In this document: in pieces, positions 7,201-58,783 of the stretch
Position numbering within the stretch: position 1 is the first letter of the stretch
How the letters are laid out: each line of letters begins with the position of its first letter
NCBI RefSeq assembly: GCF_910596095.1
Contig: NC_056554.1
Location: 4,092,001-4,156,000 of the forward strand
Origin: Thunnus maccoyii
Lineage: Eukaryota; Chordata; Actinopteri; Scombriformes; Scombridae
Reading direction: 5' to 3'
DNA: 64,000 bases
The notes under the pieces: model-generated
Told to the model about the DNA's origin: nothing
What the model saw: the letters and a program-made list of their open reading frames with translations, nothing else
The model's database searches: none
Translations under genes and position numbers: made by a program

Positions 7201-7538
7201 AGGCAAGTCTCCAAAATCCAGACTGGGTTGGGGGCTGGTGTGTCTCAAACAGGTCTAGAATACTTGTTTACATCCTTATTCTGCTTGATGTGTTTTGCCA
7301 CTATGAAGTTTGATAATATCTAAAAACCAGTGGGGGATTTTAGATACAACAACAACACAATAGGGGGGATGAATGTTTCAAAATGGATTCCATCTGTGTT
7401 TCCCAGTTCCAGGACAGACTGAAGGAGCAAGGAGTGAGTGGAGTCACCCTGAAGTGGAGAGAACAGCCTGATGGGAAAGTCTTCCACAAGGAGGGAAAAG
7501 AAGAGAAGAAGAAAAAAAGAAAGAAGACTGAGCTCTGA
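4216..7538 (+). CDS. Secreted tandem C-type lectin (lectin A)
   Basis: Five coding exons are proposed: 4216-4255, 6129-6500, 6596-6952, 7105-7202 and 7407-7538. Phases join (1,1,1,0), giving 332 aa. Exon 1 encodes the signal peptide start MMERILLGVLYLSG. Exon 2 is C-type lectin domain 1 (about 21-137), with WIGL at 75-78 and likely disulfides C42-C135 and C113-C127. Exon 3 is domain 2 (about 139-255), with WIGL at 191-194. Exons 4-5 give a charged tail ending in a Lys-rich run. Neither domain has EPN or QPD; WWD (122-124) sits at the WND position of domain 1 only. Calcium-dependent mannose or galactose binding is therefore not predicted. Exon 4 uses a GC donor (AAG|gcaagt). No transmembrane segment is seen, so the product is probably secreted. 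Fish genomes carry many such genes, named mannose-receptor-like or P-selectin-like. The start could be either of two adjacent ATGs. Confidence 0.85.
4853..5813 (+). mobile_element. Probable solo LTR in lectin A intron 1
   Basis: A 961-bp block that starts TGTTGGAAATTTTA and ends TAAAATTTTCCTACA, so its ends are short inverted repeats of TG...CA type. It contains a TATA box (TATAAAAG, 5123-5130) and a polyadenylation signal (AATAAA, 5538-5543) followed by T/G-rich sequence, in the order expected for an LTR. No flanking target duplication and no internal coding region were found. The same block occupies lectin B intron 1. The family is not assigned. Confidence 0.55.
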
Positions 7539-18277: not shown

Positions 18278-21200
18278 ATGGAAAGGATCTTGTTGGGTGT
18301 CCTGTATCTCTCAGGTCAGTGAAATATTTAAAGACATAATATGTAACTTTTCTGCATTATAAAATCTAAAAACGACTAGACATATGTTATATATTTTGTT
18401 GAGTTTTTTAATTATCCCAGATGTTTCCAACAATGTTCAATCCGTGAGAAATCTGAAATTTTAATCAAGGTAAGGGTCTCAAGGGTTTCATTTGGTCGGC
18501 ACTTAATAGCATCATATCCTCTTTGTGTGTATGTCAGTGTTGTGGTTGTCTGCCAGGAACCGTCAATAATTTCATTTTTATCTAGTTTTAAGCCACACTT
18601 TTCGATAAACTTTTTATATCTTGGTTGTTTTTAACTATATCTTTTAACCGGATGAAGGATTTTAGTCATCAGATGTCTGGATCTTAAGTTATCAGAGAAA
18701 CAAGCTGAGCAAATGTTAACAGCCTCTCTGAATGTCTCGTATCCAGAGGGGCTGAAACATTGATTATTAACATGAAACTGCTTCATTCAGTGTTTTACTG
18801 GTTTTAATCACTGTGTAGGATATCCCTCAGCAGAACTCTGTCTACCTTAATAAGTGGCCAATGCCATCACTTTATTACTTTCCTTATTGTTTGAATGTGT
18901 ACATTTGTATCCATAACTATGTTGGAAATGTTTAACTCAATTCTCCAAGTTGTATGTGTGTTAAAATCAGGTAATTAATATCTCAGTAACCACTAGAGAT
19001 AAACATGTGCTGTTTGGTAGCATTGTAATCTCATGAGCATAAGAATATTAGATTTTTAGTCATGGTAGTTGTTTGGTAACAAGGTACAGTTGTTTGAGAG
19101 ATTGTTTTAAAAATAAGACAAATTATCTGACCTCCAGTGGATGCCATGATTGGTCAGACGCTTCTCTGAAGTCCTTTATCTAACTGTACCTATAAAAGAC
19201 CATCACTGGAATGCAATAGTTGGATTCTCTTTGTTACTGGTACGAGGTCCCATTCTTTCTCTGAGTTGAAACCAACTTCAGCTGACAAGTCTTCATCTCC
19301 ACTCCCCACGGTGGCAACACCTTCTCATCTCTCCTGATGTCACCACACCACTCAGCAGCTACCAGCCCACAGACATGCAAGTAGCACACTTCTGCTCTGC
19401 TAACCGGGTGAATTCAAAAAGCTTCATCTGCTTAGAACTGAATTCTAAATTTGCCACCCCAGTTTACCAGCTGCTTCCAGTGACGGTCATTAGTCAACCC
19501 CTTTTCTGACAAACTCTGGTTCTGCATTCATTCATTCTTTCATTGTAGCGTCATTGTTTGTTTAGTGAGTGTTGTTTTGTGTCATTGTTAGGTTAGGCTT
19601 TAGGTAATAAATGTTTTGCATATAAAGTCGTTGCCTTTGTTTTCTTTAACTTACTTTCAGTCACTTTACGTATCCGATTCCTTTCCTGAGTGCAAGTTAA
19701 TTCCTTCCCAAAGCTGATTTATGTGTTAAAGATTCTTTTGACTAATCACCAAGAGAAACTATTTATTAGTCTTATTATGCTGATTCTGAGGTTATAACGC
19801 TGGACAAATAATTGAAGTGGTTCTGTGTAATAATTCTGCTTAACAGTAAATTTCCCCAAACTGAGCTAAAATTTCCCTACAATTGGGTCTGTTTGTTTTG
19901 GAGAGGAGGAGACCTCTGTGGATAATTTGGCTCCTGGTAAAAACCTCCTGAACAATGAACACTGAAGGAATCCTAACCGGGAGAAGCTGACTGCAATGAC
20001 TGCAATGGTGGTTATTTCACAATGAAGACAACAACTCCCATGATCCCACAATACTTCATGATGTCATCAAACTCTGTCTTTTGTAATTGTTTTGATTAAG
20101 AGACCACTAGCAGCAGAAGTTAAATACTGTGTGTTTAATAATGTCTAACAGTGTTTATTATTTCATTATACTGTAATACTTAAAAATGTTAGAGTCACCT
20201 CACATGTTAAAAAGTGGTGTTTTCCTCACAGGCTGGTCCATCTTCTCCACATGTCGTCTCCATCAGTACCACTTTGTTGCTGAACCCATGAATTGGACTG
20301 AAGCTCAGACCTACTGCAGAGAGACATACACAGACCTGGTCACCATTGAAAACACTGAAGACATGAACCAACTCATCAACACAGTTTCATCTGCTGGTTA
20401 CAACAGTCAGGTCTGGATTGGCCTGTACAGAGTCATTGATTGGAAGTGGTCAGATGGGTACAGAGGGAGTGGGGCTGAATATAGGGACTGGAGATCTGAT
20501 CACCCACAATTATGGGCTGATTGGCTCTGTGTAATGGTCTATTATAGTCATTACAGATGGACAGATAATCCTTGTTCATACAAAACATATTTTGTCTGTT
20601 ATAATGGTAAGTACCCAGCAAAGCATCATTTCTTCTCTGGTAATGATTATATTGAAGTTCAGGACTTAAATCATGTTTCCCCCCAATAATTTATCTGCAG
20701 GAACACAGCTGGATCCTCAATTTGTTTTTGTGAATCAACCAATGAACTGGTCCAATGCTCAGAGGTACTGCAGGGAGAACTTCATAGACCTGGCCACTGT
20801 GAGGAACGACACTGAGAGCCAGGAGGTCCTGAATTTGTTGCCAGGTACAGACTGGGCATGGATCGGCCTGTACAGAGATCCTGGTATTAACTGGTCTGAT
20901 GGCAGTGCCTACTCGTTCCCCCATTGGGGTGGCTCATTTTCAGTTTCAGAATCACTCAGATTGGTGAAAATGATGTGTGGTGTGCAGGAATCAAACCAAT
21001 GGATGTTTAAGTCCTGTGGAGAGAGATTTCCATTTGTCTGCTACAGCATCCCTGGTGAGTGGTTTACTGTCCTTCAGTGGAAGCCAGAGAATGCTGCATA
21101 ACTTTAGCATAAATCATGTTTGAATGTACATGAAAAAATGTAAATATCACAGAACTAATAGGACAGCAAATGAATGATTCATTTCTCCTCTCATTCTGTG

Positions 21201-21640
21201 TCTCAGTACCAGTAAAGAGGCAGGTAGTTAAGCTGAGGATGAAGGTGCAGGACTCCTCTGTGGATCTCAATGACCGTGCTGTGAAAGCAGACATCCTGAA
21301 AAAGGCAAGTCTCCAAAATCCAGACTGGGTTGGGGGCTGGTGTGTCTCAAACAGGTCTAGAATACTTGTTTACATGCTTATTCTGCTTGATGTGTTTTGC
21401 CACTATGAAGTTTGATAATATCTAAAAACCAGTGGGGTTTTTTAGACACAACAACAACACAATAGGGAGGATGAATGTTTCAAAATGGCTTCCATTTGTG
21501 TTTCCCAGTTCCAGGACAGACTGAGGGAGCAAGGAGTGAGTGGAGTCACCCTGAAGTGGAGAGAACAGCCTGATGGGAAAGTCTTCCACAAGGAGGGAAA
21601 AGAAGAGAAGAAGAAAAAAAGAAAGAAGACTGAGCTCTGA
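18278..21640 (+). CDS. Secreted tandem C-type lectin (lectin B)
   Basis: Paralogue of lectin A with exons 18278-18314, 20232-20606, 20701-21054, 21207-21304 and 21509-21640, 331 aa, identical phases. The first of lectin A's two ATGs is ACG here, so translation must start at the second (MERILLGVLYLSG). Domain 1 is nearly identical to lectin A up to GSGAEYR, then diverges sharply over about 35 residues. That stretch has WTD in place of WWD, loses one extra Cys, and is Tyr/Trp-rich. Domain 2 differs mainly near residues 173-188 (lectin A has PCADW, lectin B PGTDW). The GC donor of exon 4 (AAG|gcaagt) and the Lys-rich tail are conserved. There is no EPN/QPD motif. The frame is fully open, so it is likely functional. 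Confidence 0.85.
18920..19881 (+). mobile_element. Probable solo LTR in lectin B intron 1
   Basis: Counterpart of the LTR in lectin A intron 1: TGTTGGAAATGTTTAAC at the left end, TTTCCCTACA at the right, with the TATA box and AATAAA conserved. Its presence in both copies places the insertion before the segmental duplication. Confidence 0.55.
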
Positions 21641-29825: not shown

Positions 29826-30224
29826 CTTTATGTTGGCTTGTGTGTATGTATAGGGTTAGGGCAGGTAGGAAATGAATGCATCAAATTCTTAGTTGTTTGT
29901 TTGTTTTTTCAGTCTAAATGTAAACATTTGGACAGTATTCTGAACCCACGGAGCATTTGGATCAACACAGACCTGCCTGTTTCCTACTGTGAATAATCTG
30001 TAGAGAGAAAATTGAGAGTAACACTTTTATTAGTAATATTGTGAAGTCAAAACTGTTGAGTTTTAAAATACAGTTTCCATTAGAAGAAAAAGTTATTTAC
30101 TTACATAATGGCATTAACGTTGCATAGAGATGTGGGTTGTTGTGATCTGTATCCCTTAATTCTTGAAAAAGGTATCGGTTTTGAATAAAAACGCATGCAG
30201 CATCCTGTTAAACATAGCCAGTGT

Positions 30225-30296: not shown

Positions 30297-31929
30297 TTTG
30301 ATCACTTTCATGTCATTTACAGTTACTTTCATTGAAAAAAAGTTTTGTTGTTCCCTCCTGGAATAGAGAATGATTGATGACAATGACGATTAAAGATGGT
30401 GAATAAAATAAACATAATTATTTATTAATACTAACTTTTATTCTTTTAGGCTTGCGGTACTTTCAGACAGATATTGTTTCCAATATAAAGTGTTATCTTT
30501 AAAAAGATATAAAGATAACACACACACACAGTTGGCAATGGTTGAATTTCCACCACGGCTCACCATGTGACAATAGACACAACTCAATAATCAGTTTGAT
30601 TATCAAGTCTGGGCCAATAAACACTGTTTATGATATCATTTGAATAAACTTGCCATGTTAATCATGTAATATCGCTAATTGTTCCCCCTGCTGCTACTAC
30701 CTGCTGTACTTGGCTATACATGATGTGGCAGAACCACATATCAATTGTTAACATGCCCAATAATTGATTAAGGAAAATGTTTGAAATTTGCATCGCAAAT
30801 GAAAACTTGGCAAAAGCTATTATACTGTGTCATTCATTTATTGCCTATCCATCCACAACTGTCCTTTTAGGCATGCTTCATTAGAAGAGTTATAATTACA
30901 AAAATACATCAATAAACAACAAAAAAGTCATTTTATATGCTTACGATTACGTTACAATGTGTTAAAAAAATGTTTTTACTGCTTATAAATGCTATTCAAA
31001 ATATGTCTTCCCTTTATAGAGAGGTGAAAATAGAATGAAGGACTATCGCTGGTTATTGTTGACCAAAATAGCATAAAAATAGGGTTTGATATGACAAATA
31101 TCTTAAGAATTATTACTTTAATTCTTGCACTAATTGTTTTTTAGCCACCTGGGGGCAGCAGAAGCAAGCTGTAAAAACAACATTGACATATTATCACATT
31201 TTAAGGTGACACTTGACGGCTGCAGAGTCAGGTAATAAGTTTGTGGGATGCTCACTACAAGCAACCACTTTCACAGTCTGTACACATAGTCATTTGATCT
31301 ATTGTTGATACAATGATATTGATTAGAGCAGCTTTAAAGTCTAATAATCCTTGTATGGCCAGCTAACGGAGGAAATATGCTTTTTACATGTGCAGCCATG
31401 ATGTGGACACAATTACAACAGATCACACCAAGACCACATCCAGCTGTGATGTTGGTGGTCAGAGGTTAAAGAGACTTATACCTTCTAACACACAGAAGCA
31501 AATGCAGTGATGTTTTTCCTCCTTCCAAAATCTAGTGTGGGATTACTCCTTTAAGAATAAGGTTGATGTTATCATACACTTAGAGAATTTCCCAATATTT
31601 ACCACAAATAGACCAGGACCAGCAATGCATTAGTCTGTCTTGCAATAGTTCCCAGCTTCCCTATACCTACTCTGTAAGTGGCACTCAGCCACACACCAAT
31701 TGGTTCCTTCTAAAGATGTAAATCTTTAAAAACAGGTCACAAACTTCTCAAACAGGAGTAAATAGTACATATTAACTATTTGTAGCCAAGGATTTATACA
31801 CATTTAGGGCATTTGTGTTATTTCATGTTATTTAGCAGGACAGTGTATTTGGAATTGACTAAAAAATAAACTAGTGTGTTTTACATGTAACTTACTGCAA
31901 CAGAAAATCAAGGAACACGCCAACTCACC
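30296..31929. other. Noncoding spacer 3' of X1
   Basis: AT-rich DNA with no exon or recognisable element. A chemokine-type exon (the sequence for DDCCFKFYPR) was looked for on the minus strand and not seen, which matters for interpreting X1. Confidence 0.55.
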
Positions 31930-34900
31930 TTATGCTGCTCCTCTTGGATACTGATGGACTTTTTTTTGTACAGGAGCTTTTGAATGATGGGTCACTGTAA
32001 CAGGAGCAGCTTCAGAGCTACTGGCAGAAATCAGTCCAGAAGTTGTAGTGACCTCTGAAGAAGTCAGCTCCAGCACAGAGGGACTTTTAATAGTTGTTGG
32101 ACAACAATGGAGCTCTATGACACAGGAATAACATATATCATGCTTTTGATATGCAGACAATACTTGTTACCGGATCAATTCATTGTTGGTTTCAATCTTC
32201 CAGATTGAGAAAGGAAAATCAAGGAGCACGCCAACTCACCATGTACTGCTCTTTTTGGGTCCTGATCAGCTTTTTCTTGTATGGAAGTTTTTGAATGATG
32301 GGTCACTGTAACAGTAGCAGCTTCAGAGCTACTGGCAGAAATCAATCCAGAAGTTGTAGTGACCTCTGAAGAAGTCAGCTCCAGCACAGAGGGACTAGCA
32401 GGAGTTGTCTGTCCCAGAACAGAAAGAGGACTGGAGGCTAATGTCTTATTTCCGTCTCTAAACATATATATAAGACAGATTGGTTGAACATTTTGGAATA
32501 TGCTATTCTTTGGAATATACCATCATATACATATTGTACAGGACTTTTTTTAATGTCCAAACATCCAAAGATGCAAAACTTACGGAACAAGTGGAGCAAT
32601 GACAGAAAAGTAGATTTCCACATCAATACACACTTCCATGTTGGGAAACGCCATGCTAGTCCAATACAGTACAGACAAAACATGACAACAAAATATTTCA
32701 GATAAAACAGATATATGAGTTTTAAAAGTAATCTGTCACTGCATTTGGTGATATTAACAAGATTCTACCACATTTAATACTCCTGCTACCATTTCTAGAG
32801 CTCTTACTATTAGCCACAGCAGCTGCCGATGCTACCGCTACTGCTGTTACATACATCACTTACATTATCATAGGTTCACATCCTGGAGCAGGAGGTCTGA
32901 GGTCTATGTGTGACAACCTTGAAGAGTACAAATCTTTTTGTTGTATATTCGTCTTGTTGCACTGACAGTCTTGTTGACTTTTGTTGACAGAGCGGTTGTC
33001 ATGCAGTGTGAGACTGCTCTCCTTGCTCGCTGTAGAAAACACATGACTTCAGACTTTATCTGCACAATTATAACATTAGAGCATATGAGCAGGGGAGGAA
33101 GCAAGCCTTATACAAAGTCGTTCCCAACACAAAAAAAATGATTCAATCGAATGTAATCATAAATATAAGACAACAAGACAGAACAAATAAAAATAACAAG
33201 AGAAGGTAAATGAAATTTTAAAAGGGAATTTACAATCAAAACAAAAAAAAGGATAAGGGAGTGTTATAAAATGTTATTTTAAAGAGAGCGCAACTTCTAT
33301 ATTTAACAACATTGCAATTTACATCGACACACATTTGTCAAATACTGATTTTAAAGCAGTTGTGTGATAGGCTGATTCACTATCTTGCAATTTATAAACA
33401 TCATTCCACACACCCTCATTAATTAATCTAATGTTACAGCATTATTTGCTTTGCTATGATTGATGTTGAAACCACCAAGCAGCACCTTACACCATTTCCC
33501 CATTTTTCAAGTCATTTCTAGGGTAGATGAAATAGCATTTCTGAAGATGTCGGTATCAGAATCGGGTGGTGTATACATACAACTTAATTAAGCGTCACAA
33601 GTTTATCACTTTCAAATAAACCAAGTCTGCAGCTATAAATGTTAGCAGGCTATTTTGATTCCTCAATTTCTAATAAGCCATCAGCAAAAGTTAGTCAGCC
33701 ACCTGTGATTTTAAATGTTAATAAATCATTAATAGAGGATTCTTAAAATAATCCATCAGGTCTGCAGCTGTAAATGTTAACAAGCTTTTGGTCCAGATCT
33801 CCTGCAGCCCTATTCCAGAGGATAAGTGGTCAAACAGTCTACTGGATGGGTCTTCATGATGAATCAAGAGCTAGCTGAGTATCATATTTGAGGAGGATTT
33901 TCCACAACCTGGCAACCTAATGGCTTATAAGCTAATTATAAATAATTAGTAAATGTATTTATTCATAATTAATAAAGCCACTCAAAAAGCCAGAAAATGT
34001 ACACAAATAATAACCATCAATGCCAACAAGTAGAGCAATGTATAGAAATATGAAGTATATGTCAACAAAAATTTGGTTTACAACAGACACCAAAGAATAA
34101 AGAAGAATTTGCATTTTAAAAAAAGTAGCTATACACACAGTTTGATATATTAGATACCAAAAAATGTAAAGTATCATACAGTTAGGATGAGGTAGCAAGA
34201 AACCATCAAATACATAAACTGACAGCACACCTACAGAAGAAACAAGACTAACCTTCATATGTTGTGTTGGTGTCGTTGCTTTCATTAGATTTGATGTTGA
34301 CGGGTGGAAGCTGAATATAAAACTCTCCAAACAGCATCTCCTCATCAGTGCTTCTTCTCTGTACAAACACTGCAATTACACAAATACACTGCATTCACTT
34401 TCACTTCTAATAATAATTTTGAACACGTTTAAAGGCAACACAATGCAATGTAAAAACAACAGTGCTGATAATGATGACAAAAACAATTTGTTTGCATTGT
34501 TGATGTGCATGTTAAATGAGTAAAAGGGAACAGTTGAGCACAAGTTCACTCTTGACTCTTGCGGTACTAGTTTGACAAAAGAATGTTAAGTCAGTGAGTT
34601 GAGCCTGAATTAGTTTAAATTAAATTAAGTTTGATTTGATTTGATTTGTACAAAAGGAACAGATGGTCAATTACTTAAGTTTCTCTTAATCAGGGAAATC
34701 ACACTGATCCGGAAAGTGTTTCCCTGTTGAGCTGCAGTGGAAGGATTGTAACAAAAAGAGGAAATTTGGGGCTAAAAAGACAACATTGAAAGACCTGACT
34801 GTTGTTTTAGGACAGACTTGAAAAATCATGAAACCATCCTTTAACTTGGTCATGACTGAAATCACAACAGCTGAAAGACTGCCTGTCCGGGATATCTGTC

Positions 34901-35070: not shown

Positions 35071-35377
35071 CAGTATGTTGGCTAATATGCAGAGAAGTTA
35101 TTTTCCCTAGAACATCTTATTTGAACATTGTGTCAAATTTCTCATAAAGCTGCAGGACTGATCCACACAGCTTTCACAAACCAACAAAATCCACATTGAC
35201 AGAACAAGGATGCATTTTCACAACTACTTATTATATACTATAAAATATGTTATATATGTTGTATATAATATGGCTGTTTCTGAAGCTTCTCTTACCTGAG
35301 AGAGGATCTGGTGTTAAAAAGAAGACAATCCATACTATGTTCAGGAGAAGCACAATGATATGAACAGCCCGCTGCAT
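31930..35377 (-). CDS. X1: mucin-like secreted protein of the extended-chemokine family, no chemokine domain
   Basis: Minus-strand exons 35377-35296, 34369-34253, 33029-32864, 32457-32240 and 32114-31930 join in frame (phases 1,1,2,1), 255 aa. Exon 1 is a signal peptide (MQRAVHIIVLLLNIVWIVFF). Exons 2-3 (residues 28-121) contain sequons including NES, NDT, NTT, NRS, NKS and NKT, and a CQC pair. Exons 4 and 5 (about 122-255) are near duplicates, Ser/Thr-rich, sharing SPSVLELTSSEVTTTSGLIS and VTVTHHSK. Exon 5 reaches TAA one base before a conserved GTGAGT donor. An internal exon therefore seems to have become terminal, and a former downstream exon, probably the chemokine domain, has been lost. 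The best guess is a heavily glycosylated secreted protein. Its function is unknown. Confidence 0.6.
34999..35070. repeat. Palindromic TC-TA-GA microsatellite in X1 intron 1
   Basis: Runs (TC)n, then alternating TA with one GATA interruption, then (GA)n. The TC and GA arms are complementary, so the whole can fold into a long hairpin. Confidence 0.85.
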
Positions 35378-37045: not shown

Positions 37046-37889
37046 TTAATATGTCACCCGTCTGTATATCATTCTGCACAGTGAAGCTCAAACATCCAAC
37101 TGAAGGAACAAGAAGAAAAACACATTTCTGGTAGATGGGGACTTTAAGTATTTTATAATAGGTTCATTTTTGTTTGTGCCACTGTGTATTATGCTGAGTA
37201 ATTTGATTAACCTTTAAACCTTAAAACCTACAGAACATACAACTTACTTGCTTTAATATGTATTCGTCAAACATGTGGCTAATCAGCACACATCAAGGAA
37301 GTATAAAACGTGTTCCTGTGTGTGCAGACCTTTGTGTTATACTGAGCATTCAACATGTAACCAGTGGCTCTCTTCTCTGAACCAAAACATCATGAACATC
37401 TCACTCCACCTAGTGGATAAAAGTTGGAAGACCTGTAACATCACAATCTTCATTTTGTCTAGTGGGAATGTAGGAATCACTATAGTGCAAAGTCAGGATA
37501 TAGACTGATTTGTCTATATTTACAGAAATAAACATTTACATATTTTAAAATTTTAAAAATAATTAAAATAACATTTAAAAGAAACACTGCAGTTTTGATG
37601 AGAATTAGTTTCTGCCTGACAGCATAATTTGATCATTTTATTTTGAATTGAATCAGTGATTCAAATTGAGTGATAAAGATTTACGACGTGGTGATTCTCT
37701 GATACTCTCACTGTCTTATGTATTACCTGATTTGATAAACCTACCATTTTATAGGTAGTTTTTGCAAATTTAAACTGTTGTGGAAATTTAGTCAAAGAAA
37801 TTCTAAAATTCTGTAATTGATAAATAAACAAGTAACAGAAATGAAAGTACAGAAAATATCTGGAAGAGTCAACAGTCACAATGATTCAA

Positions 37890-38100
37890 TGAACACATGA
37901 TCAGTCTGGACATAATCACAAAACAAAAATCCTCCACATCTCATAGATGTTGTTTGTTCGTGTGTGTTTGCGTGTGTTGGAGGAGCCTGAAATAAACCTT
38001 GTAACCACAGAACCAACAGATCATTTTTTCACTTGCTGACATCACACTGTGTTTCCACAGAGCAGTTTGATTTTCACACTCTACTTTTCATACTTTTCTA
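37890..38100. repeat. Cluster duplication block (copy of 40,850-41,070)
   Basis: Shares long words such as GAACACATGATCAGTCTGGA, CATCTCATAGATGTTGTTTG and CACTGTGTTTCCACAGAGCA with the sequence upstream of X2. Confidence 0.8.
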
Positions 38101-38653: not shown

Positions 38654-40626
38654 TTACAAGTTTGCTTCATCCAGACTTTTCATGATTTTCTTAACCCAGG
38701 GGAGATTGGGATCCACACAGATGTGACGAGACTTTCTGGTCAGCAAACTGAAAGAAAACAGGTGAAAATGAAAATGTCACAATGACACATGACAGTGTTT
38801 TTTAAGTAATTAAAATAGGATAACAAATAGATGTGTTGAGCTCTTATTGTCACCAAACTAAAAAAAGGAACAAGATCATTTAAAAAATAGAATATATATT
38901 TGTATATTTAGTTCATCATAATTGATCAACTAAAAAAAATTGTATTGACAAGTTATTCTGACTTTAAATAAATGTATTGCAAAATTTAATTGTAAAATCA
39001 AACAAGATACGTATATTTGTGCCTAATATATTAAAGTTATTATTATGTTCAGTGAAGTAATTTAAATGATCAGGACAAAAGTACAAATTTCTTACATGAC
39101 TCCAGTCCTCGGGCAGTGGTAATCAGTCGTATAATATGACTGGATCAAGTTTTTGTTCATGCTTCTCGGGTAGAATTTGAAGCAGCAGTCATCAGGATCC
39201 TTAACAGAAGGAGGTCGTCCCTGCTCATGAGGGGGACTGGCTGCAGTTTTCTCAAACCTGTCTCCAACAGTGGATACATCAACACATGACCAGCTCAAAA
39301 GACTTTGTGGAAATAAAGTCAAATACAGACATGTTCACTGAGCTGTATCATAAAGTGATCTTTTCCTTATTAGTGTATCACTGTGTAGAACTTAGAAGAA
39401 GATTTAATAAAAAAACAAAAAAAAAAACAGAACTGCAGTGAAAGCAGAAAGGAAACTTTCCATATCAATACACACCTCTTTGTTGGCAAATGTTAAACTA
39501 GTCCAATACAGAACAGAAGAATCATGATGCACAGGTCAAATGAAAAAAGCATCACAATGCTCCCACTGATACTAATATTATTGCAACTGGTACCAGTGCT
39601 GGTACTATAATACTAATACTGGTATGAAAGAAAGAAAGATAAAGATTTAAAAGATGAAGATAAAGTTTTAACTTGTATTACATAATAAACAGCTTTTACT
39701 TTGAATATAATAGCTAAATTTAACTCACATTCTCTTTGGTTTGTGTTGCGGTGTAGGAGATATGACGTTGATCTCTGACAGCAGTGAGGAGTCTTGATCT
39801 TTTTGCTGTATTTTTGTCTTGTTGTTCTGACAGTGTTGCTGACATTTGATCATGTTGGTTGAGTTGCTGCTTTCATGTAGTGAGAGGTTGCTTTGTCCAT
39901 ATTCTGCAGAAAAAAAGAGGAGTTTAGCTGGCATAGATAATAACAAACATATCATTTAGGATAAATGGAATATATAATAATTGCTAAATGTATAAAATTG
40001 TATTTTCCTGTATATAAATAAGATGATTAGGATATAAGGGTAAGAAGAATTGAGACAAGAAAATAAATGAATTGGTGGCGTATTTGTGGAATAGTTAAAG
40101 ACTCGCCTTGAAAAGTCGTGTTGGTTTTATTATCGGTGATGTTGACTGAATGTAGAGTTGATGTCCAGTTCATTTCAGATGGAAGCTGAATACAGAACTC
40201 CTTGTTGCTGTCAGAGCTTCTTCTCTGTACGGACACTGCAAATCAACACAAATCATCTCAAGATTACCCACATATGTTTAAATATGCTAAATGGTAAATG
40301 GGCTGCATTTATATAGCGCCTTTCTAGTCTTCCAATCACTCAAAGCACTTTACACTACATTCCAACTACATGCCAATAGTAGAAGTGAAGGTTCCTTTAC
40401 TTCTACTGGAAAAGCCTCCAGTAAAAGAACCTTTACTTCTGGACTGTAAAGGTTTTACTAATATCATTTGCAACATACTTTGGATTTAAAGTCAACAGAG
40501 TGTCATGAAAACTAGGGATGTTCAGTTCTTTAAACCTCTCTTACCTGAAAAAGGATGTGGTTGTAAAAGGAAGAGAATCCATACAATGTTCAGGAGAAGC
40601 ACACTGACATGGACAGTCCACTGCAT
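38654..40626 (-). CDS. X2: CC chemokine with a long glycosylated N-terminal extension
   Basis: Minus-strand exons 40626-40545, 40235-40107, 39903-39729, 39257-39096 and 38747-38654 join in frame (phases 1,1,2,2), 213 aa. Exon 1 is a signal peptide (MQWTVHVSVLLLNIVWILFL). Exons 2-3 (28-128) carry seven sequons (NWT, NIT, NKT, NTT, NLS, NST, NKT) and three Cys. Exon 4 opens with a Pro-rich linker, then DDCCFKFYPR. Cysteines C153, C154, C177 and C193 have the spacing CC-x22-C-x15-C of a CC chemokine, with ICVDP...WV before the C-terminal helix (to 213). Ordinary chemokines have under about 12 residues before CC; here there are about 125. Intron 2 has a GC donor (CAAG|gcgagt). CC chemokines signal through seven-helix receptors, and an extended N-terminus may block activity until cleaved. 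Alternatively, the chemokine exons could be used from another first exon. Confidence 0.65.
40285..40440. repeat. Fish interspersed repeat in X2 intron 1
   Basis: Contains GGGCTGCATTTATATAGCGC and CACTCAAAGCACTTTACACT, an abundant fish repeat. A longer copy lies at 45,245-45,395 in X3. Confidence 0.65.
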
Positions 40627-41836
40627 GTTTCTATCTGCTGATTAAACTCCACACTGTACTGAAAAACAGCTGCTGACAGACTCTGTGTGGGATATTAAAA
40701 GATGAACCACCTAACCTCATAGATTTTGTAAACTCGTGTGTGTTCCTGTCCGGTGGAGGGGCCTGAAATTAACAATGAAACCACAGAACCAACAGTACAA
40801 TTGCGCATGTTAATTTTTTCACTCGCTAACATCATCAGTGAACACATGATCAGTCTGGATATAATCACAAAACAAAAATCCTCCACATCTCATAGATGTT
40901 GTTTGCTCGTGTGTGTTTGCGTGTGTTGGAGGAGCCTGAAATAAACTTTGTAACCACAGAACCAACAGATCATTTGCTCATGTTATTTTTTCACTTGCTG
41001 ACATCACACTGTGTTTCCACAGAGCAGTTTGATTTTCACACTCTACTTTTCATGCTTTTCTTACAAGAGCAATTGCAGTATGTGACCAACATATTTGATC
41101 AAAACACTAAAAGAAATGCTTTATGAATTAGGTAATTACCATAAATGTTATACTATCCAGACTCCATCTGAGCAAGTACTGAAATTTATATGTAGCAAAC
41201 GTAAATGTCTTTGTATTTATCTTTACAAAGGTACAGAACATACAACTTACTTTACAGCTCAATGTTCCCTTTAACACCACTTGCAAAAACAAGGCCTACT
41301 GTAGACAGAATATGGCAGCCATGACCCTAACCAGCACTCAGACTCATGAATGAGGATTTAACCACTGGGATATTTACATTAGTTTACTATCAGCAAAGGC
41401 AAAAACATTGAGTAGCCAGTAATGTCCCTCCCAGGCTGCTTTAGGGCTAGACAGGCTTTAGCACCGCCAACTTTCTTGTCAATTTGTTTGGCTTGTTGTT
41501 TGGTTTCACTCTGGTAGGAAGTAGCTTCAGTTTGTAGGTTGGGGCAGCGCTGCTGTGTGTTTTACTCTGTTTTATTAACTATGGGTCTTGCTCCCTGAAT
41601 TATGCATTATCAAAGTCAAAACAAGGAAAAATCATTACATTTGCCACATAATAATTCCATCTCTGTATTCTGACTTTAAATAAATGTATTTTAAAATTGT
41701 AAAATCAAACAAGATATGTATCTTTCTGCGTAACATATTAAAGTTATTTTTCATTTTAAGTTAATAAGTTTATTTTATTTTTTATGTTGGTTCATAAGTA
41801 ATTTAAATGATTAGGACAAAAGTAAATTTTTCTTAC
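40627..41836. other. Upstream region of X2
   Basis: Holds the duplicated block 40,850-41,070. 41,050-41,410 closely matches 48,190-48,560 upstream of X3, showing that X2 and X3 duplicated together with their 5' flanks. No coding exon. Confidence 0.55.
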
Positions 41837-42589
41837 ATGACTCCAGTCTTCAGGCACCAGTCATCAGTCATATAATATAAGCTGATGAGGTTTTTGTTCA
41901 TGCTTCTCGGGTAGAATTTGAAGCAGCAGACACTAAGAACTCGTCCACACTGCCCCCTAGTGGAGCCCTGCCCCCCCCCCCCCCCCAGCTATCATGTTCT
42001 AAATGCCCCAAGGTTAACAGGCTGTGGTGGCGGTATTGCAACTGTTTTTTAAGAGTAATTTTACTTGTCTTCCATTCAGCTTTGGCTATTTTAACAGTTT
42101 TCTAAATTCTTTCTTTTAAAATGGTGTGTGACAACCCAATTTGCTGTGTAATTGTTTATCGACCACCCAACCATTCAAATGTGGGTTTACTTGATAAATT
42201 CTCAAGGTTGCTGTCCTCTCTTGTGGTCAAATTTAACAGGGCTAAATTCAAAAATTCAAAGTTCAAAGAAAGATAATAAACCAAGATTTTAACTTGTATT
42301 ATATTGTAAATAGTTTTTACTTTGAATATAAGTATAATACCTATATTTAACTCACATTCTCTTTGGTTTGTGTTGTGGTGTAGGAGATCTGAGGTCAATC
42401 TGTGACAGGTGTGAGGAGTCTTGATCTTTTTGCTATATTTTTGTCTTGTTGTACTGACAGTGTTGCTGACATTTGATCATGTTGGTTGAGCTGCTGCTTT
42501 CATGCAGTGAGAGGTTGCTTTGTCCACATTCTGCAAAAAACAAGTGAAGTTTAGCTGGCACAGAAAATGACAAACATATCATTTATTTT

Positions 42590-45000: not shown

Positions 45001-45244
45001 CATGACATGCTTTATTGTCACATATTGTGGCGTATTTGTGGCATAGATAGAGCCTCGCCTTGAAAAGTCGTGTTGGTGTTGTAGGTTTTATTATCAGTGA
45101 TGTTGACTGAATGTAGAGTTGATGTCCAGTTCATTTCAGATGGAAGCTGAATACAGAACTCCTTGTTGCTGTCAGAGTTTCTTCTCTGTACGGACACTGC
45201 AAATCAACACAAACCATCTCAAGATTGCCAACATGTGTTTAAAT

Positions 45245-45405: not shown

Positions 45406-47835
45406 GTAACTCTTTAGATTACAGCTTGCAACGTACAGCGTAATTACTCCATAGTCAAGATGTAATCTTTTGTACTAACAGTGTACTAGTACAGTACATA
45501 CCAATACATATATGTAGGTACAGGGGAACAAGATGTGAAGTTGTGGAATAAGGGTTCAACAAACAAACACAAACTTGTGAAGAACTTATACTGTAGTTAT
45601 TTTAACTACTGGGTACCTATTCTATTGTTATAGAGTATGTATAACCTACTGAGCAATAATCTGGAAGTTTGGGAGAAATTTAGGGTTAATTATTACTGTA
45701 GTTATTTTTTAACTACTGGGTAGCTGTTATGTTATTACAGGATACCATAAAACTGAGCAAAAATCTGGACGTTTCAAGGAAGATGTGATGACTTCTGCAG
45801 CACTTAATAAATCTGATGTGATTTTATTTCAAAATGACCTTATTACCGTCAAACAAGCAAAATACAAAGTGTAAATCAAATAAGTGACAAAGATTTGGAT
45901 AGGAAGAACATAAAAACAATGCCATAAAGACAATAATAATGCAAGAGTACTGTGTTATTTTTTATTACAATTGTGACTTACTTCAGATCACAGCAGGGAG
46001 CGACGGAGTGTTTTCTATAAAGAATTGGAAAAGGCTCTCCGCCCACCCACCTTACAGGTGTATGTTGGAAGGATGTTTTTTGCTAACCTACTTTACAGCA
46101 AACATATGGTGAGTAATAATCTTAATATATTTATTGGCACAGAACTATCTGGTTTGTGGCTCATGTCAAATGTAGCGTTAACGGAACAAAAGAAAGATGC
46201 TGTTGGACTGTTAGCTTGATAATCATTTGTTAGCTACCAGCTGAAAGAGCAAAGCAGTAACTTACCCTGCAGATTTTACAAGCTAATACTAATGATTGCT
46301 CTAATAGTAATTAAAGGCAATGTAATACATAACATAACACTTGTGGGTTTGTGTCTTACAGAAGCTGAAATATGTTCAGGTGATTTTATTCACATAGCAA
46401 CCTACACTAAGTTAATCTGCTGCTGCACTGGCTAAACTTTCAACACATCCTCATTGGAGCTTATGTTAATTTGTGATGACTTTGCTGGCAACTAGCAAGT
46501 ACATGACCTCACGTAGCCCATTAATATTGCATTTATTCACATCTAGAATGCCAGCCATGATGGCTTTGCAGTTGTGTGGTGAAGGGTTTGATTCTTATGG
46601 CTTTTCACCAAGTGGGAGACATAATGACTGTCATAAATCCAGATATCTCACACTATAAATTACCGACAAGAGACTGACATTACAGTTTTTCTCTGTAGGG
46701 TCAACATATGGCCACGGTGCACTAGCTTCTTTCTCCTTGTCTCATTCTCAACCCTGTCATCTTCATCAGGAGTGGAAAGGAAGATGAAAGAATAAAAGAA
46801 GAAGAAGAAGAAAATGAAGAAGCAATGCAAGAAAAACAAAGAAATAAAGAATTAAATGCTATTTGTTCCTTGAAGGTTTCTAATTTATTTTAAATAAGAA
46901 GTATGTTAAATAAAGGTGTTAAGTTAAGGATGTAAAATTTTGGTTTTAATATGATAGACGACATACAATGTACACTTTAGATTACAGCCCACATACCCTG
47001 TAGTTACCCTGTAACAAGGGAGAAACAACCAACATAACTTACTCTGTAACTACATAGGACAATGTGAGGACAGTTTGTTTCAATTTTACTTGCCTCAAAA
47101 CATGGAAGAACAAACTAAATTCACTACACAGTTTACAATCAGAAGGGCATATGAACCATATATATGCGTTCTGATTCATACCTCATGTTTTATCTTTAGC
47201 TATATTTATATTATAGCTAAAGATGAGTGACATCTTTGGTGGGTAAATTCTGTCCACCGATGGCAGGCAGAGCCACCAGGCCATAAAGGAGCATCAAGTG
47301 ATGAAGTTGGCTGGTGAAGTGAACGACAGCTGAGACAGTCTTCAGAGGCCAAGAGCATCCATGACAATACGCTGTCCTCTGGACCTTTGTTCCGAAGTAA
47401 ATGCACAAATGTACCCTGTAGTTATTTAAGTACCCCAAAATGAAAAAGGAACAATGTAGTTTGCCTGTTTGTTAGTAATTAGGTCATTTTGAAATAAAAT
47501 CACATTAGATTTATTAAGTGCTGCAGAAGTCATCACCACTAACCTAGTAGTTAAATAATAACTAGAGTATTAATTCTCTCTAAATTCTTCCCAAATTTCA
47601 AGATTATTGCTCAGTAGGTTGTACATACTCGGAAATAATAGAATAGGGACCTGGTAGTTAAAAAATAACTACAGTAGTAATTTGTAAGTTCCCAAATTGT
47701 TACACCCTTATTCCATAACTTCACATCTTGTTCCCCTGTACCTACATATATGTATTGGTGCATACTGTACTGTTACACCGTTAGTACAAAAGTCAATTAA
47801 GCTTTACTTTGCAGGCTGTAATCTAAAGCATTAAC
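45406..47835. mobile_element. Long-TIR DNA transposon with 8-9-bp target duplication
   Basis: 2,430 bp. The first about 430 bp and last about 340 bp are inverted copies of each other: ends read GTAACTCTTTAGATTACAGC at left and, inverted, GTTAATGCTTTAGATTACAG at right. Shared words inside both arms include ACATATATGTAGGTACAGGG. The element is flanked by AGAGTTTCA (45,397-45,405) and AGAGTTTCT (47,836-47,844). Long TIRs with 8-9-bp duplications suggest a Mutator-like (or Merlin/hAT-related) superfamily. There is no transposase frame, so it is non-autonomous. It sits in X3 intron 1. A truncated relative lies at 13,165-13,778. Confidence 0.8.
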
Positions 47836-48031
47836 AGAGTTTCTAATGCTCATTCATAACTGCTAATATAATTTGCAACATACTTTGGATTCAAAGTCAA
47901 CAAAGTGTCATGAAAACTAGGGATGATCAGTTCTTTAAGTTTCTCTTACCTGAAAAAGGATGTGGTTGTAAAAAGAAGAGAATCCATACAATGTTCAAGA
48001 GAAGCACACTGACATGGACAGTCCACTGCAT

Positions 48032-50670
48032 GTTTCTATCTGCTGATTAAACTCCACACTGTACTGAAAAACAGCTGCTGACAGACAGTCTGTGTGGGAT
48101 ACTAAAAGATGAACCACCTAACCTCATAGATTATGTATACTCATGTGTGTTTGCGTCAAGTGGAGGGGCCTGAAATTGACCATGTAACCACAGAAGATTT
48201 TCGTATTCTCATTTTCAGACTTTTCTTACAAGAGCAACTGCAGTATGTGACCAACATATTTGATCAGAATACTAAAAGAAGTGCTTTATGAGTCATGTAA
48301 TTACCATAAATGTTATGATACTATCCAGACTCCATCTGAGCAAGTACAGAAATGTATCTGTGGTAAATGTCAAGGTCTTTATATTATTTATTAATCATTC
48401 TTTATAGCTCAATGTTCCCTTTAACACCACTTTCAAAAACAAGGCCTACCGTAGACAGAATATGGCAGCCATGACCCTAACCAGCACTCAGACTCATGAA
48501 TGAGGATTTAACCACTGGGATATCTACATTATTCTACTATCAGTAAAGGCAAAAACATTGGTTGAAATATTCCAGTTAATAGAACTTCACTTAATCTTCT
48601 CACATGTCACAAACCTTGATTTACATGTTAGTGAGTTCATTAACCAACCAACTATAAGAATATATTAAAATACTTCTGGAGGAAACAGTCATGCCAATAG
48701 AACGCATTGACATGAATAAAAGTCAGTAAGTTTTCCATGAACTAAGAAATCTCAAAATCCCATAAAAAAAGAGAATCAATATACATTTCAGGATATCTAT
48801 GTCGTAACTCAGCAGTAAACAGTTTGTGAGACACTTAAAAATATATATAATTAATACTGAGAATAATTCAAGAAACACTGATGTACAAAAATTAATATGT
48901 TTCAGATATCTTGGTAATAAAGCTGTGTGTGTCATGAAATTGCTATAGTATATCATAAAGCTCAAATTAATGATATTAATATATATTAATATTAATGATA
49001 TAAAATATTTCAGTGGGTTTCAGTCAAGGTTTAACAGAGTTCTCTTGTTAAACTGGTGCAAAAACAATAACATGAAGTTACATTAAGTCTGTCACAAAAT
49101 AAAGGTGAGGCTAACCTGTTTTAACTAAGATATACAGATGAGCATCATCAGCATATTATCGTATTAAAATAACAGAAAATACCAGTAACAAATTCTGTTA
49201 CAATAACTATGATCAGTTTGGATGTTAATCTCCATCCTGTGTTATATACCAATCAATTTCAAGTGAAGTTCAGCAGGTTGCTAGCTTATGTTTAGTTTCA
49301 GTCCATTTAATTTTCCAGTACCTGCCCAATGTCTCCCACTACATTATTTATTATTTTATTATTTATTTTTGTGCACCTGGTGTACATTTTTGCACATAGT
49401 GTGCTCTGGGTCAGTGCTGATTGATGGTTTTAATGGTTATAATGAAGCCTACCATTCAAATGTTGTTGCATCCTTCACTTTCAATAAATTAATAGAAATA
49501 ATTATGGTTGTTATGTTCTCTTGTTTTAGATGAGATCATAATATCGTGTGATTGTGAATGTATTTTCTCTATAAACGAATAGTGTCAAACCAAAACAAAA
49601 CAAAACACTCTCTTCTCTCTGAAATGGGTGAATGGAGGTTCAATCATCCATTTATTAATGACTAATAAGATATCTATAGATGCAAAATTAATTTGTGGTT
49701 CAAAGTTTGATATATGAACTAATAATAAAGGAATACCTCAGCTGGGTCAAAAATGACTAGCTCCATAACGTGCAGGGTCAGAATATGAACAGTATGTAAG
49801 GGTTAAAAAATCTTTTTATTAGTAAGCTAATATTTTGACCTATAGTTACACTTTTCGTCATGTGGAGTGGAACTGGAGCAGAAGTATAATCTTTTTTGTA
49901 ATGAAGATCACTACATTATTATTTCTTCTCACAAGGTGTGTCTGAAGGTCAGACTTTCTTGCCCTTTTCAACCAGCATGATAAACATTTCATACCAACCT
50001 TTCCTGACCTCTTCTTTACAGGATGTCCTGCATCCTCAGCACTACTATTAATACTACTGTGTGTACATGAGATGAATGGTATCTACTAATACTATTTCTG
50101 ATACTAGTACTACAACAATACTACAAACGATAATAAGTGGTCATTCATAGTACTGTTGTAATTCCAAAATGTTAAGTAATACTTTTTGTTTAAAGGTGTA
50201 AAAGTGTAAAGCTTATTTGGTTTCTTATATCAGTCAGATGAGAAGATTGATACCACCACCTCTTGTTTGTATGTTGAATATAAGCTGGGAACTATTAGCT
50301 TAGCTTAGCACAAAGACTGGAAATGGGGAACAGCTAGCCTAGTTCAAAAATCTGCCTACCAGCACCTCTAAAACACACAAATAAACATTATATCTGTTTG
50401 TTTAAGGCTTGCAACTTTTTTTCTTAGCTTAGAGGAAGTTCAGAGGAGACATACCAACAGTGAAAGTTTCATATTATTTAATGTATTTATGTGAGGTTTA
50501 TATGATATTGTAGGTATTACAAAGCATTTAGAACATATTAAAAGATATATCAGCCAATTCAGGCTCAAAATGATTCCATTTGAAAGCTAAATAGTTCATT
50601 ACTCAAGGCAGGTTTGCACATTAATACCAAAATCATTACCATATTTTAAATGAAATGTCAAACATTTGCA
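48032..50670. other. Upstream region of X3 and spacer
   Basis: 48,190-48,560 repeats the X2 upstream region. 50,160-50,510 repeats 38,110-38,470. 48,600-50,150 is AT-rich with nothing recognised. Confidence 0.55.
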
Positions 50671-50733: not shown

Positions 50734-51104
50734 TTACAAGTTTGCTTCATCCAGACTTTTCATGATTTTCTCAACCCAGGAGAGATTGGGATCCACACAG
50801 ATGTGACGAGACTTTCTGGTCACCAAACTGAAAGAAAACAGGTGAAAATGAAAATGTCACAATCACACGTGGCAGTGTTTTTTAAGTAATTAAGATAGAA
50901 TAACAAATAGATACAAAAGTTATAACATACTGTATGTACAGTATGAGAAAACTTTAGTGATCTCTTAATAGAGTAAACAGACACAAAAAAAGTCATGGGT
51001 AGCATGATGTGTAGCCTGTGTGCAAACTACTTAATTACAGATGTAGAAAGGAGGACATATATATATATATACACACACACATATATTTATATATATATAT
51101 ATAA

Positions 51105-51156
<52 letters not shown>

Positions 51157-51551
51157 ATATATATATACTGAAGTATATAATACTGAAGTAAACTCAGTTT
51201 TCAGCACTTACATGACTCCGGTCCTTGAGCAGCGGTAATCAGTCATATAATATGACTGGATTAAGTTTTTGTTCACTCTTCTTGGGTAGAATTTGAAGCA
51301 ACAGTCATCAGGACCATTTGCGCCTGGAGAATAGAGACCATCATGTAATGTATTATCATGGTGTTTTGAGAAGTGAGATCTTGAATTGCAACGTGCTCAG
51401 GTTGGTCACATACACATGCCACATGTAGCTATATTTAAAAAAATATATATATCTATATATATATTTATATATTTATCTTACTGTTGCAGATCACTGAGGA
51501 AAGCAGTGCAGCTCCCAGGATGCAGAACAGAAGCATGTGACTTGTCCTCAT
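50734..51551 (-). CDS. CC chemokine, conventional three-exon gene
   Basis: Minus-strand exons 51551-51482, 51323-51212 and 50827-50734, phases 1 and 2 as usual for CC chemokine genes, 91 aa. The signal peptide is MRTSHMLLFCILGAALLSSV, with likely cleavage after ICN/S. The mature protein starts near ANGPDDCCFKF. Cysteines C31, C32, C55 and C71 give CC-x22-C-x15-C. RKSRHICVDP and WVEKIMKSL form the third strand and C-terminal helix. Exons 2 and 3 are very close to the last two coding exons of X2, differing at a handful of residues, so these genes exchanged or duplicated their 3' halves recently. The product would be a secreted chemoattractant for leukocytes. The orthology group is not assigned. 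Confidence 0.88.
51058..51172. repeat. TA/CA/TG compound microsatellite in intron 2 of the CC chemokine gene
   Basis: Alternating (AT)n, (AC)n, (AT)n, then about 18 GT units and (AT)n. The AC and GT arms are complementary. It lies within the intron between exons 2 and 3. Confidence 0.9.
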
Positions 51552-57460: not shown

Positions 57461-58783
57461 TCAGCGCTTCAGCACCGGGCTGCCCCGCTCCTGATCTTTC
57501 TGTAACGCCTGCAGAACCTGAAGAGACAAGGGAAGTAGCTGTTAAAAAATATGACACTGGCAATCTGTAAAGACTTATAAACAACGGTCTCAGCTAAATG
57601 TCCTCAAACGTAAGCTCTAACATCCTCCTACCTGTGCCCACTTCCTGTTGCGGCTGGTCATGTGGATGGCGGCGATTTGCTGGAAGAGCTGCTCGGCGGG
57701 GATGAGGTCGGGCAGCCGGGTGAGGAACTGAGCCATGTGGATGAAGTCCATGCAGGTCAGGACGTCCTGGTAGAGACGCAGCAGGCCCAACGCCGTGCGG
57801 AACAGGAACTCCTCGCCGTCTCTGCAGAACACGTCCCACACCCGACACGCCAGGTCCAACGGCAGCGACTTACTGTACAGAGTGAAGATCCTGGAGGCAC
57901 GCAAGGAGGGAAAAGAGAGAAAACAACAGTGAACATTAGTTTTGTGAGCATACAAAAGCATAAATGCAAAATAAAAACTAGAAACAAGCACAGATGTGTG
58001 CATATCTTCAAGATGAATTTGTAGCTGTATATCATCTGTACAATGAAGCACACAGCTGCTGCATCTTATATCTCTACTGCATTGGTTTAAACACTTTTAA
58101 GATCCTAATGTCACAGCCATAATATGAAATATGATAATGATATGAAATATGAAAACAACTTTTCACCATGACAACGCCTCTATAAATTTTGTTTCTTGAC
58201 TAATTCTGACTTCTTGTTCAACAACTCCACAGTTAACTTTCAGAAGAGACCGGGCTTTGTAATTTTTTTTTTTTTTTTTTTTTTTAATTTGATTATTTGA
58301 TTACTCTTCCAATGATTTTCTCAGTTTATAAATTAATCATTTAGGTTGTAAAATGACAGGAAATTGTGAAAAATGTTGCAATTTCCAACAGCCCAAGTTG
58401 ATGTTTTCAAATAACCTTTTTCTGTCTAAACAAAAGTCTAAAAAAACCTCAATATATTCATTTTACTATCATAGATGACTAAGAAAACCAGCAAATAATC
58501 ACTTTGAAGAGCTGGAGCCAGTGACTTTTTGCCATTTTTTCTTAAAATGATGGTTAATCAGTTATAACAATTGCTTTTTATATGATTGATAAATCATTCA
58601 ATCAACTAGTTGGTTCTGCTTTTATTTTGAGTATGTTTTTTTCTGGCTTGTACTTAAGTTAGAAATCATGTATAAATGTAAGATTGGTTATAGATTGTTA
58701 TACTGGAGGGAGAAAAGCAACACATTTTCTTGTTCCTCCTGAGATTTCTCCCTTTTCCCCTCTGTTTAAGTGATGGAAACACG

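Follow-up and report, generated by a model that had tools for sequence, protein, structure and literature searches.

Predicted CC chemokine genes with an N-glycosylated N-terminal extension form a small tandem family in a fish genome

On C22 of a 782-Mb fish genome lies a small tandem gene family in which a CC chemokine is predicted to stand behind an N-glycosylated N-terminal extension. The window that we analyzed is a stretch of 64,000 nucleotides from this genome (C22:4092001-4156000). Exons of the extension occur in at least five places genome-wide (copies F, E, D, A and B), and all of these matches fall in one C22 cluster. Whole-genome searches were made with the extensions of A and F, and the matches listed away from C22 had E values of only 0.24 to 5.7. 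The product of such a gene would begin with a hydrophobic leader, continue through a pair of N-glycosylation exons followed by a Ser/Thr-rich exon, and only then reach the CC domain. The features of the window copies are collected in Table 1.

A preliminary description of copy A (38654-40626, minus strand) had proposed five minus-strand exons whose phases join, and this structure was borne out: the phases after exons 1 to 4 are 1, 1, 2 and 2, and the exons form a single open frame of 213 codons plus stop. The seven N-glycosylation sequons claimed for two of these exons are indeed present in exons 2 and 3, where shuffles of the same residues led us to expect 2.6 (P 0.004). Equally, the CC chemokine domain was found to be complete and in frame, with a match to Pfam IL8 (PF00048) above the cut-off (1.9e-17); its nearest solved structure is CCL3. 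Ahead of the domain there is a linker, as had been said, but the label "Pro-rich" is generous for 19 residues with 4 Pro. What the description of this five-exon copy overlooked was the fuller copy D, the GC donor of exon 2 (found in both A and E), two possible endings without a chemokine ahead of exon 4, and the weakness of the exon-4 acceptor, which with 8 pyrimidines in 16 positions has the fewest among the 20 sites listed. This acceptor appears to have shifted away from the ancestral AG.

Copy D (35377-29889, minus strand) lies in the same window as A and has six phase-compatible exons (phases 1, 1, 2, 1 and 2) that encode 263 residues, all in one open frame. Ser or Thr accounts for 25 of the 74 residues of its exon 4. 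The CC domain of D matched Pfam IL8 at 1e-21 and was nearest to an XCL1 ancestor (1.4e-11) and CCL20 (1.7e-11), these matches having been computed with a shorter exon 4 and an identical chemokine part. The adjacent CC pair and two further cysteines are present in both A and D. No polyadenylation hexamer was seen within 400 nt of the D stop codon.

Two earlier choices in the model of D were dropped. The exon 4 acceptor at 32431/32430 gave way to that at 32457, which is homologous to the acceptor used in F, and a reading of the CC exon with one cysteine was abandoned, the in-phase frame giving CC. The Ser/Thr exon of D has a second copy at 31929-32114 of the window, which runs into an in-frame TAA shortly ahead of the donor.

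Table 1. Positions of predicted exons and possible alternative endings (window coordinates).
Feature	Position	Strand	Description
Copy A exon 1	40545..40626	-	ATG, hydrophobic leader; 82 nt, phase 1 donor CAG/gtaaga
Copy A exon 2	40107..40235	-	N-glycosylation exon, 4 sequons, GC donor
Copy A exon 3	39729..39903	-	N-glycosylation exon, 3 sequons, ends KPKR, phase 2
Copy A possible alternative last exon, TM-like	39552..39618	-	IISIIVPALVPVAIILVSVGAL stop; acceptor 14/16 pyrimidines
Copy A possible alternative last exon 3b	39404..39497	-	phase-2 acceptor, short ORF
Copy A exon 4	39096..39257	-	Ser/Thr exon remnant and copy C type CC chemokine exon, fused in frame
Copy A exon 5	38654..38747	-	chemokine domain end and stop
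Copy B exon 1	47950..48031	-	decayed copy
Copy B exon 2	45060..45197	-	decayed copy
Copy B exon 3	42355..42525	-	in-frame stop
Copy B CC exon remnant	41836..41928	-	5' end lost
Copy C	50734..51551	-	ordinary three-exon CC chemokine: 51551-51482, 51323-51212, 50827-50734
Copy D exon 1	35296..35377	-	hydrophobic leader
Copy D exon 2	34253..34369	-	N-glycosylation exon
Copy D exon 3	32864..33029	-	N-glycosylation exon
Copy D possible alternative last exon 3b	32580..32655	-	IMAFPNMEVCIDVEIYFSVIAPLVP stop, ATTAAA 101 nt from start
Copy D exon 4	32240..32457	-	Ser/Thr-rich, ends DPKRAVHG, phase 1
Copy D CC chemokine exon	30105..30204	-	GCCMRFYSKPIPFSRIKGYRSQQPTSLCNVNAI
Copy D last exon	29889..29997	-	chemokine domain end, stop

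Copy F sits 62 kb outside the window. Over exons 1 to 3 it is 66% identical to D, and the exons, phases and splice sites are kept. The frame of its CC exon is broken, behind the CC pair, within a run of A, and this break is either real or an assembly error; the CC pair and the third and fourth cysteines are common to F and D at 38% identity. In exons 1 to 3, copies E and A share 97% identity; E is open throughout (216 aa) and has CG at the place of the CC pair. When the CC domains of A (window 38654-39196) and E (C22:4081532-4082145) were compared, 13 nonsynonymous and 0 synonymous changes were counted over 65 codons. In the alignment of the two domains 12 of 195 bases differ, and in well-aligned noncoding sequence the figure is 2.0% (26/1289). 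Diversifying or relaxed selection is possible for this domain.

Copy B is decayed, and tblastn found no last exon for it. Within B, the window positions 45467-47792 hold imperfect inverted repeats (84-91%), which are probably a mobile element. Another block repeats at 37886-38031, 40662-40980 and 48089-48195, ahead of the first exon of both A and B and once more beyond the end of A. Elsewhere in the window, two similar plus-strand copies at 6074-7310 and 20177-21412 resemble C-type lectin genes in translation, and at 57600-58100 there is a minus-strand ORF that we take to resemble a TBC-domain protein.

Exons 1 to 3 of A have counterparts in E, D and F that share their phases and length remainders. 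Exon 1 is 82 nt long in all four copies, the length modulo 3 of exons 1, 2 and 3 is in each case constant across A, D, E and F (4/4), and that of exon 4 is constant in D and F (2/2). In the predicted models of D and F, exon 2 on its own and exons 3 and 4 together are shown to be phase 1-1 cassettes, placed in what corresponds to the first intron, of phase 1, in ordinary CC chemokine genes. The family, if real, would be a case of exons shuffled into a chemokine gene at its first intron.

The same property bears on how the exons might be joined. The phases after exons 1 to 4 of D and F are 1, 1, 2 and 1; exon 2 and exons 3 plus 4 are phase-symmetric, and exon 1 could therefore be spliced in phase directly to the CC exon, giving an ordinary short chemokine. 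We consider such skipping improbable, since it fails by phase in A and E, where the fused exon begins in phase 2, and since the conservation of the extension would then need another reason. An excess of synonymous change was found between D and F over exons 1 to 4 (P 0.001) and between A and D over exons 1 to 3 (P 0.004), the substitution counts having been rounded before these tests. Over exons 1 to 3 the excess was marginal for D and F (P 0.048) and not significant for A and F (P 0.086). At the level of the predicted exons, two of the four comparisons clearly favor synonymous change.

Two further regularities of the extension were noted. It has an odd number of cysteines, three, in every one of A, D, E and F, and in all four copies VQ(R/K)R is found soon after the leader.

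Next to these genes stands copy C, which has its own ordinary signal-peptide exon, phases 1 and 2, and a CC domain that matched Pfam IL8 above the cut-off (7.2e-17). Copy C is the nearest relative of the CC domain of A, with 86% identity. Compared with D, the CC domain of A is 32-33% identical and its extension 57%. We then placed the start of exon 4 of A by means of a 60-base probe. Its best ungapped diagonal in D was exon 4 (35/60, best of 2600 positions), that in F was likewise exon 4 (30/60, best of 2075), and its best match in the C region reached 28/60. Aligned exon-4 stretches of 21 residues, which were picked by eye, beat shuffles with P values of 0.003 (A-F) and 0.006 (A-D). Gapped alignments did not recover this homology: a global alignment of A with D left exon 4 unplaced, and a local one scored 21, where shuffles averaged 20.3. 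The beginning of this exon in A is homologous to its counterparts in D and F, with the register preserved. As judged from the predicted exons, A is shown to be a young hybrid, in which the 5' exons are of D type and pass, inside exon 4, into CC and last exons of C type. The earlier proposal of one gene with the glycosylated part first holds in that D and F, diverged as they are, keep this arrangement, but A itself proves to be a derived hybrid with a C-type CC domain.

If each locus held two genes, one might look for a separate signal-peptide exon ahead of the chemokine exons. The interval from exon 3 to exon 4 in A and E was searched in three phases and contained no candidate. From exon 3 to the CC exon, searched in phase 1 only, D had three weak candidates (shuffle mean 0.54), consisting of one ORF with two donors that overlaps block 3b (see below) and one in a GTA repeat; F had one weak candidate, in a dinucleotide repeat, against a shuffle mean of 0.62. 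As controls, we searched six other loci (L055-L060), and all six had clear signal-exon candidates 205-855 bases ahead of the CC match, as did copy C. These loci were chosen by hand among the genome matches, leaving out three on C5, two near 21.58 Mb of C12, one on C2 and weaker ones, and where a control locus had several candidates the convincing one was picked by eye. The thresholds were loosened once, after control C had been missed (donor from 7 to 6 of 9, hydropathy from 2.0 to 1.9). That the predicted chemokine exons of A, E, D and F have no convincing separate signal-peptide exon supports the one-gene reading.

It is very improbable, in our estimation, that two adjacent genes came to be co-linear by chance within a decaying tandem array. 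There are decayed members in this array (copy B, the frame break of F and the lost cysteine of E), and a plain chemokine gene adjoins it, but the diverged copies D and F share exon order, phases and length remainders, with no convincing signal-peptide exon in between.

The single genes that we favor could nevertheless end in more than one way. The bases of the TM-like exon of A are identical in E, as compared by eye, and no TM-like ORF was seen in D. In exon 3b of A, ATTAAA lies 89 nt from the exon start and overlaps the end of the ORF. Within intron 3, blastn aligned D with F in block 3b and nowhere else (127 nt, 84%). In each of the four copies, of which A and E are not independent, this block has an acceptor in phase 2 and contains a short ORF, and a polyadenylation-like hexamer lies 86-128 nt from the block's start; the regional background of such hexamers is 0.95 in 400 nt. 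The differences within 3b by codon position (1,3,5 for D-F; 10,4,7 for A-D; 9,4,10 for A-F) are not clearly coding-like.

These endings raise the alternative that the genes make mainly a short glycoprotein, ending in 3b in A, E, D and F or in the TM-like exon in A and E, and that the chemokine exons are rarely joined to it or are relics. The conservation of 3b between D and F, the recurrence of its acceptor, ORF and hexamer, and the strong acceptor of the TM-like exon all speak for two such products. We nonetheless think this rather unlikely: D has an intact CC domain, D and F retain their CC pair and third and fourth cysteines at 38% identity, the frame and phase of exon 4 are kept, the CC exons have no convincing other first exon, and the codon-position counts of 3b give no clear sign of coding. 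For the fused product that we prefer, the predicted splice from exon 3 to exon 4 of A is plausible, with competing acceptors that look stronger. Because of the competing ends and the weak exon-4 acceptor of A, the fused product is more secure for D than for A. The alternative 3' exons may also yield a glycoprotein without a chemokine.

Chemokine activity depends on a free N-terminus. Unless the chain is cut, 152 residues in A and 195 in D, leader included, stand ahead of the CC pair, which is not a short mature N-terminus. The protein may be a pro-chemokine, in which the glycosylated part would block the receptor-activating N-terminus until a protease cut it away. The releasing protease would probably be a proprotein convertase acting at KR (DPKR/AVHG-CC in D, KPKR in A). 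In D this dibasic KR is four residues before CC, and a cut there would leave the four residues AVHG ahead of the pair. In A and E, KPKR or KPRR is 24 residues before CC, and F has its closest dibasic pair 64 residues ahead of CC. We infer latency and proteolytic release from these predicted chains; the KR site of D fits, and F is without a near site. Taken jointly, a family of glyco-extended CC chemokines built with phase 1-1 cassettes, with A as a hybrid and with a latent pro-chemokine freed by a convertase, is the account toward which we lean.

We also considered a different topology, in which the leader is an uncleaved signal anchor and the protein a type II membrane chemokine, an inverted fractalkine whose glycosylated stalk displays the C-terminal chemokine outside the cell. 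Between residues 18 and 36, D and F have no leader cleavage site that meets the (-3,-1) rule, so a signal anchor is possible in these copies, and the leader is hydrophobic (19-residue hydropathy of 2.18 in A and 2.58 in D). The leader of plain copy C, however, reaches 2.08 by this measure, which hardly tells the two apart; A and E do have a site that meets the rule (SVS/VQ), and no more than a few residues would be left as a cytoplasmic tail. We regard the type II reading as quite improbable, and we lowered our estimate of it a little because a plain chemokine leader is about as hydrophobic.

A broader version of the latent pro-chemokine, which we offer tentatively and consider doubtful, is a lineage of inverted fractalkines in which an anchored or secreted glyco-carrier bears a C-terminal CC chemokine freed by a convertase, the carrier having been re-used as an exchangeable module for a distantly related second CC domain in A and E. 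A long glycosylated carrier before two different CC domains would, if true, be a new way of holding chemokines latent.

Within the terms searched, the excerpts of the open-access literature that came up contained no N-terminally mucin- or glycan-extended chemokine. According to PMC2416438, the stalked chemokines of zebrafish and mammals (CX3CL1, CXCL16 and the mucin-tailed ones) carry the mucin part after the chemokine domain, which agrees with what the preliminary description had said of known stalked chemokines. Like CX3CL1, CXCL16 and the zebrafish mucin-tailed chemokines, the proteins predicted here would combine a chemokine domain and a glycosylated or Ser/Thr-rich stretch in one chain. 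Unlike CX3CL1 and CXCL16, they have the extension ahead of the domain, and the chains of A and D end soon after the fourth cysteine with no stalk or TM segment behind it. Table 1 of PMC2416438 lists zebrafish CCL-chr20e and CCL-chr20f as unusually long proteins of 163-174 aa with five coding exons and with 1 and 3 O-glycosylation sites; across the zebrafish table, whole-peptide counts of O-glycosylation sites exceed the C-terminal counts by at most 5 (PMC2416438). The likeness of CCL-chr20e and CCL-chr20f to our genes in exon number and length comes from this table description alone and is a lead only.

A further comparison is with the NC6 group chemokines (CCL6/CCL15/CCL23), whose extensions are short, about 25-30 residues, and whose mature domain has six cysteines. 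They are described as CC chemokines with N-terminal extensions in PMC7914252, and a 2005 study cited there reportedly concerns their proteolytic activation. Copies A and D resemble them in having the extension before CC and differ in that it is far longer (152 residues in A, 195 in D) and carries several sequons, and in that the domain has four cysteines, not six. Another extended chemokine is CXCL7, a CXC chemokine with a short extension. According to PMC3694472, the N-terminally longer forms PBP and CTAP-III are without the chemokine activity of NAP-2 (CXCL7) until they are cut. The step from PBP/CTAP-III to NAP-2 is a precedent for the latency proposed here, and it differs in concerning a CXC chemokine and a short extension.
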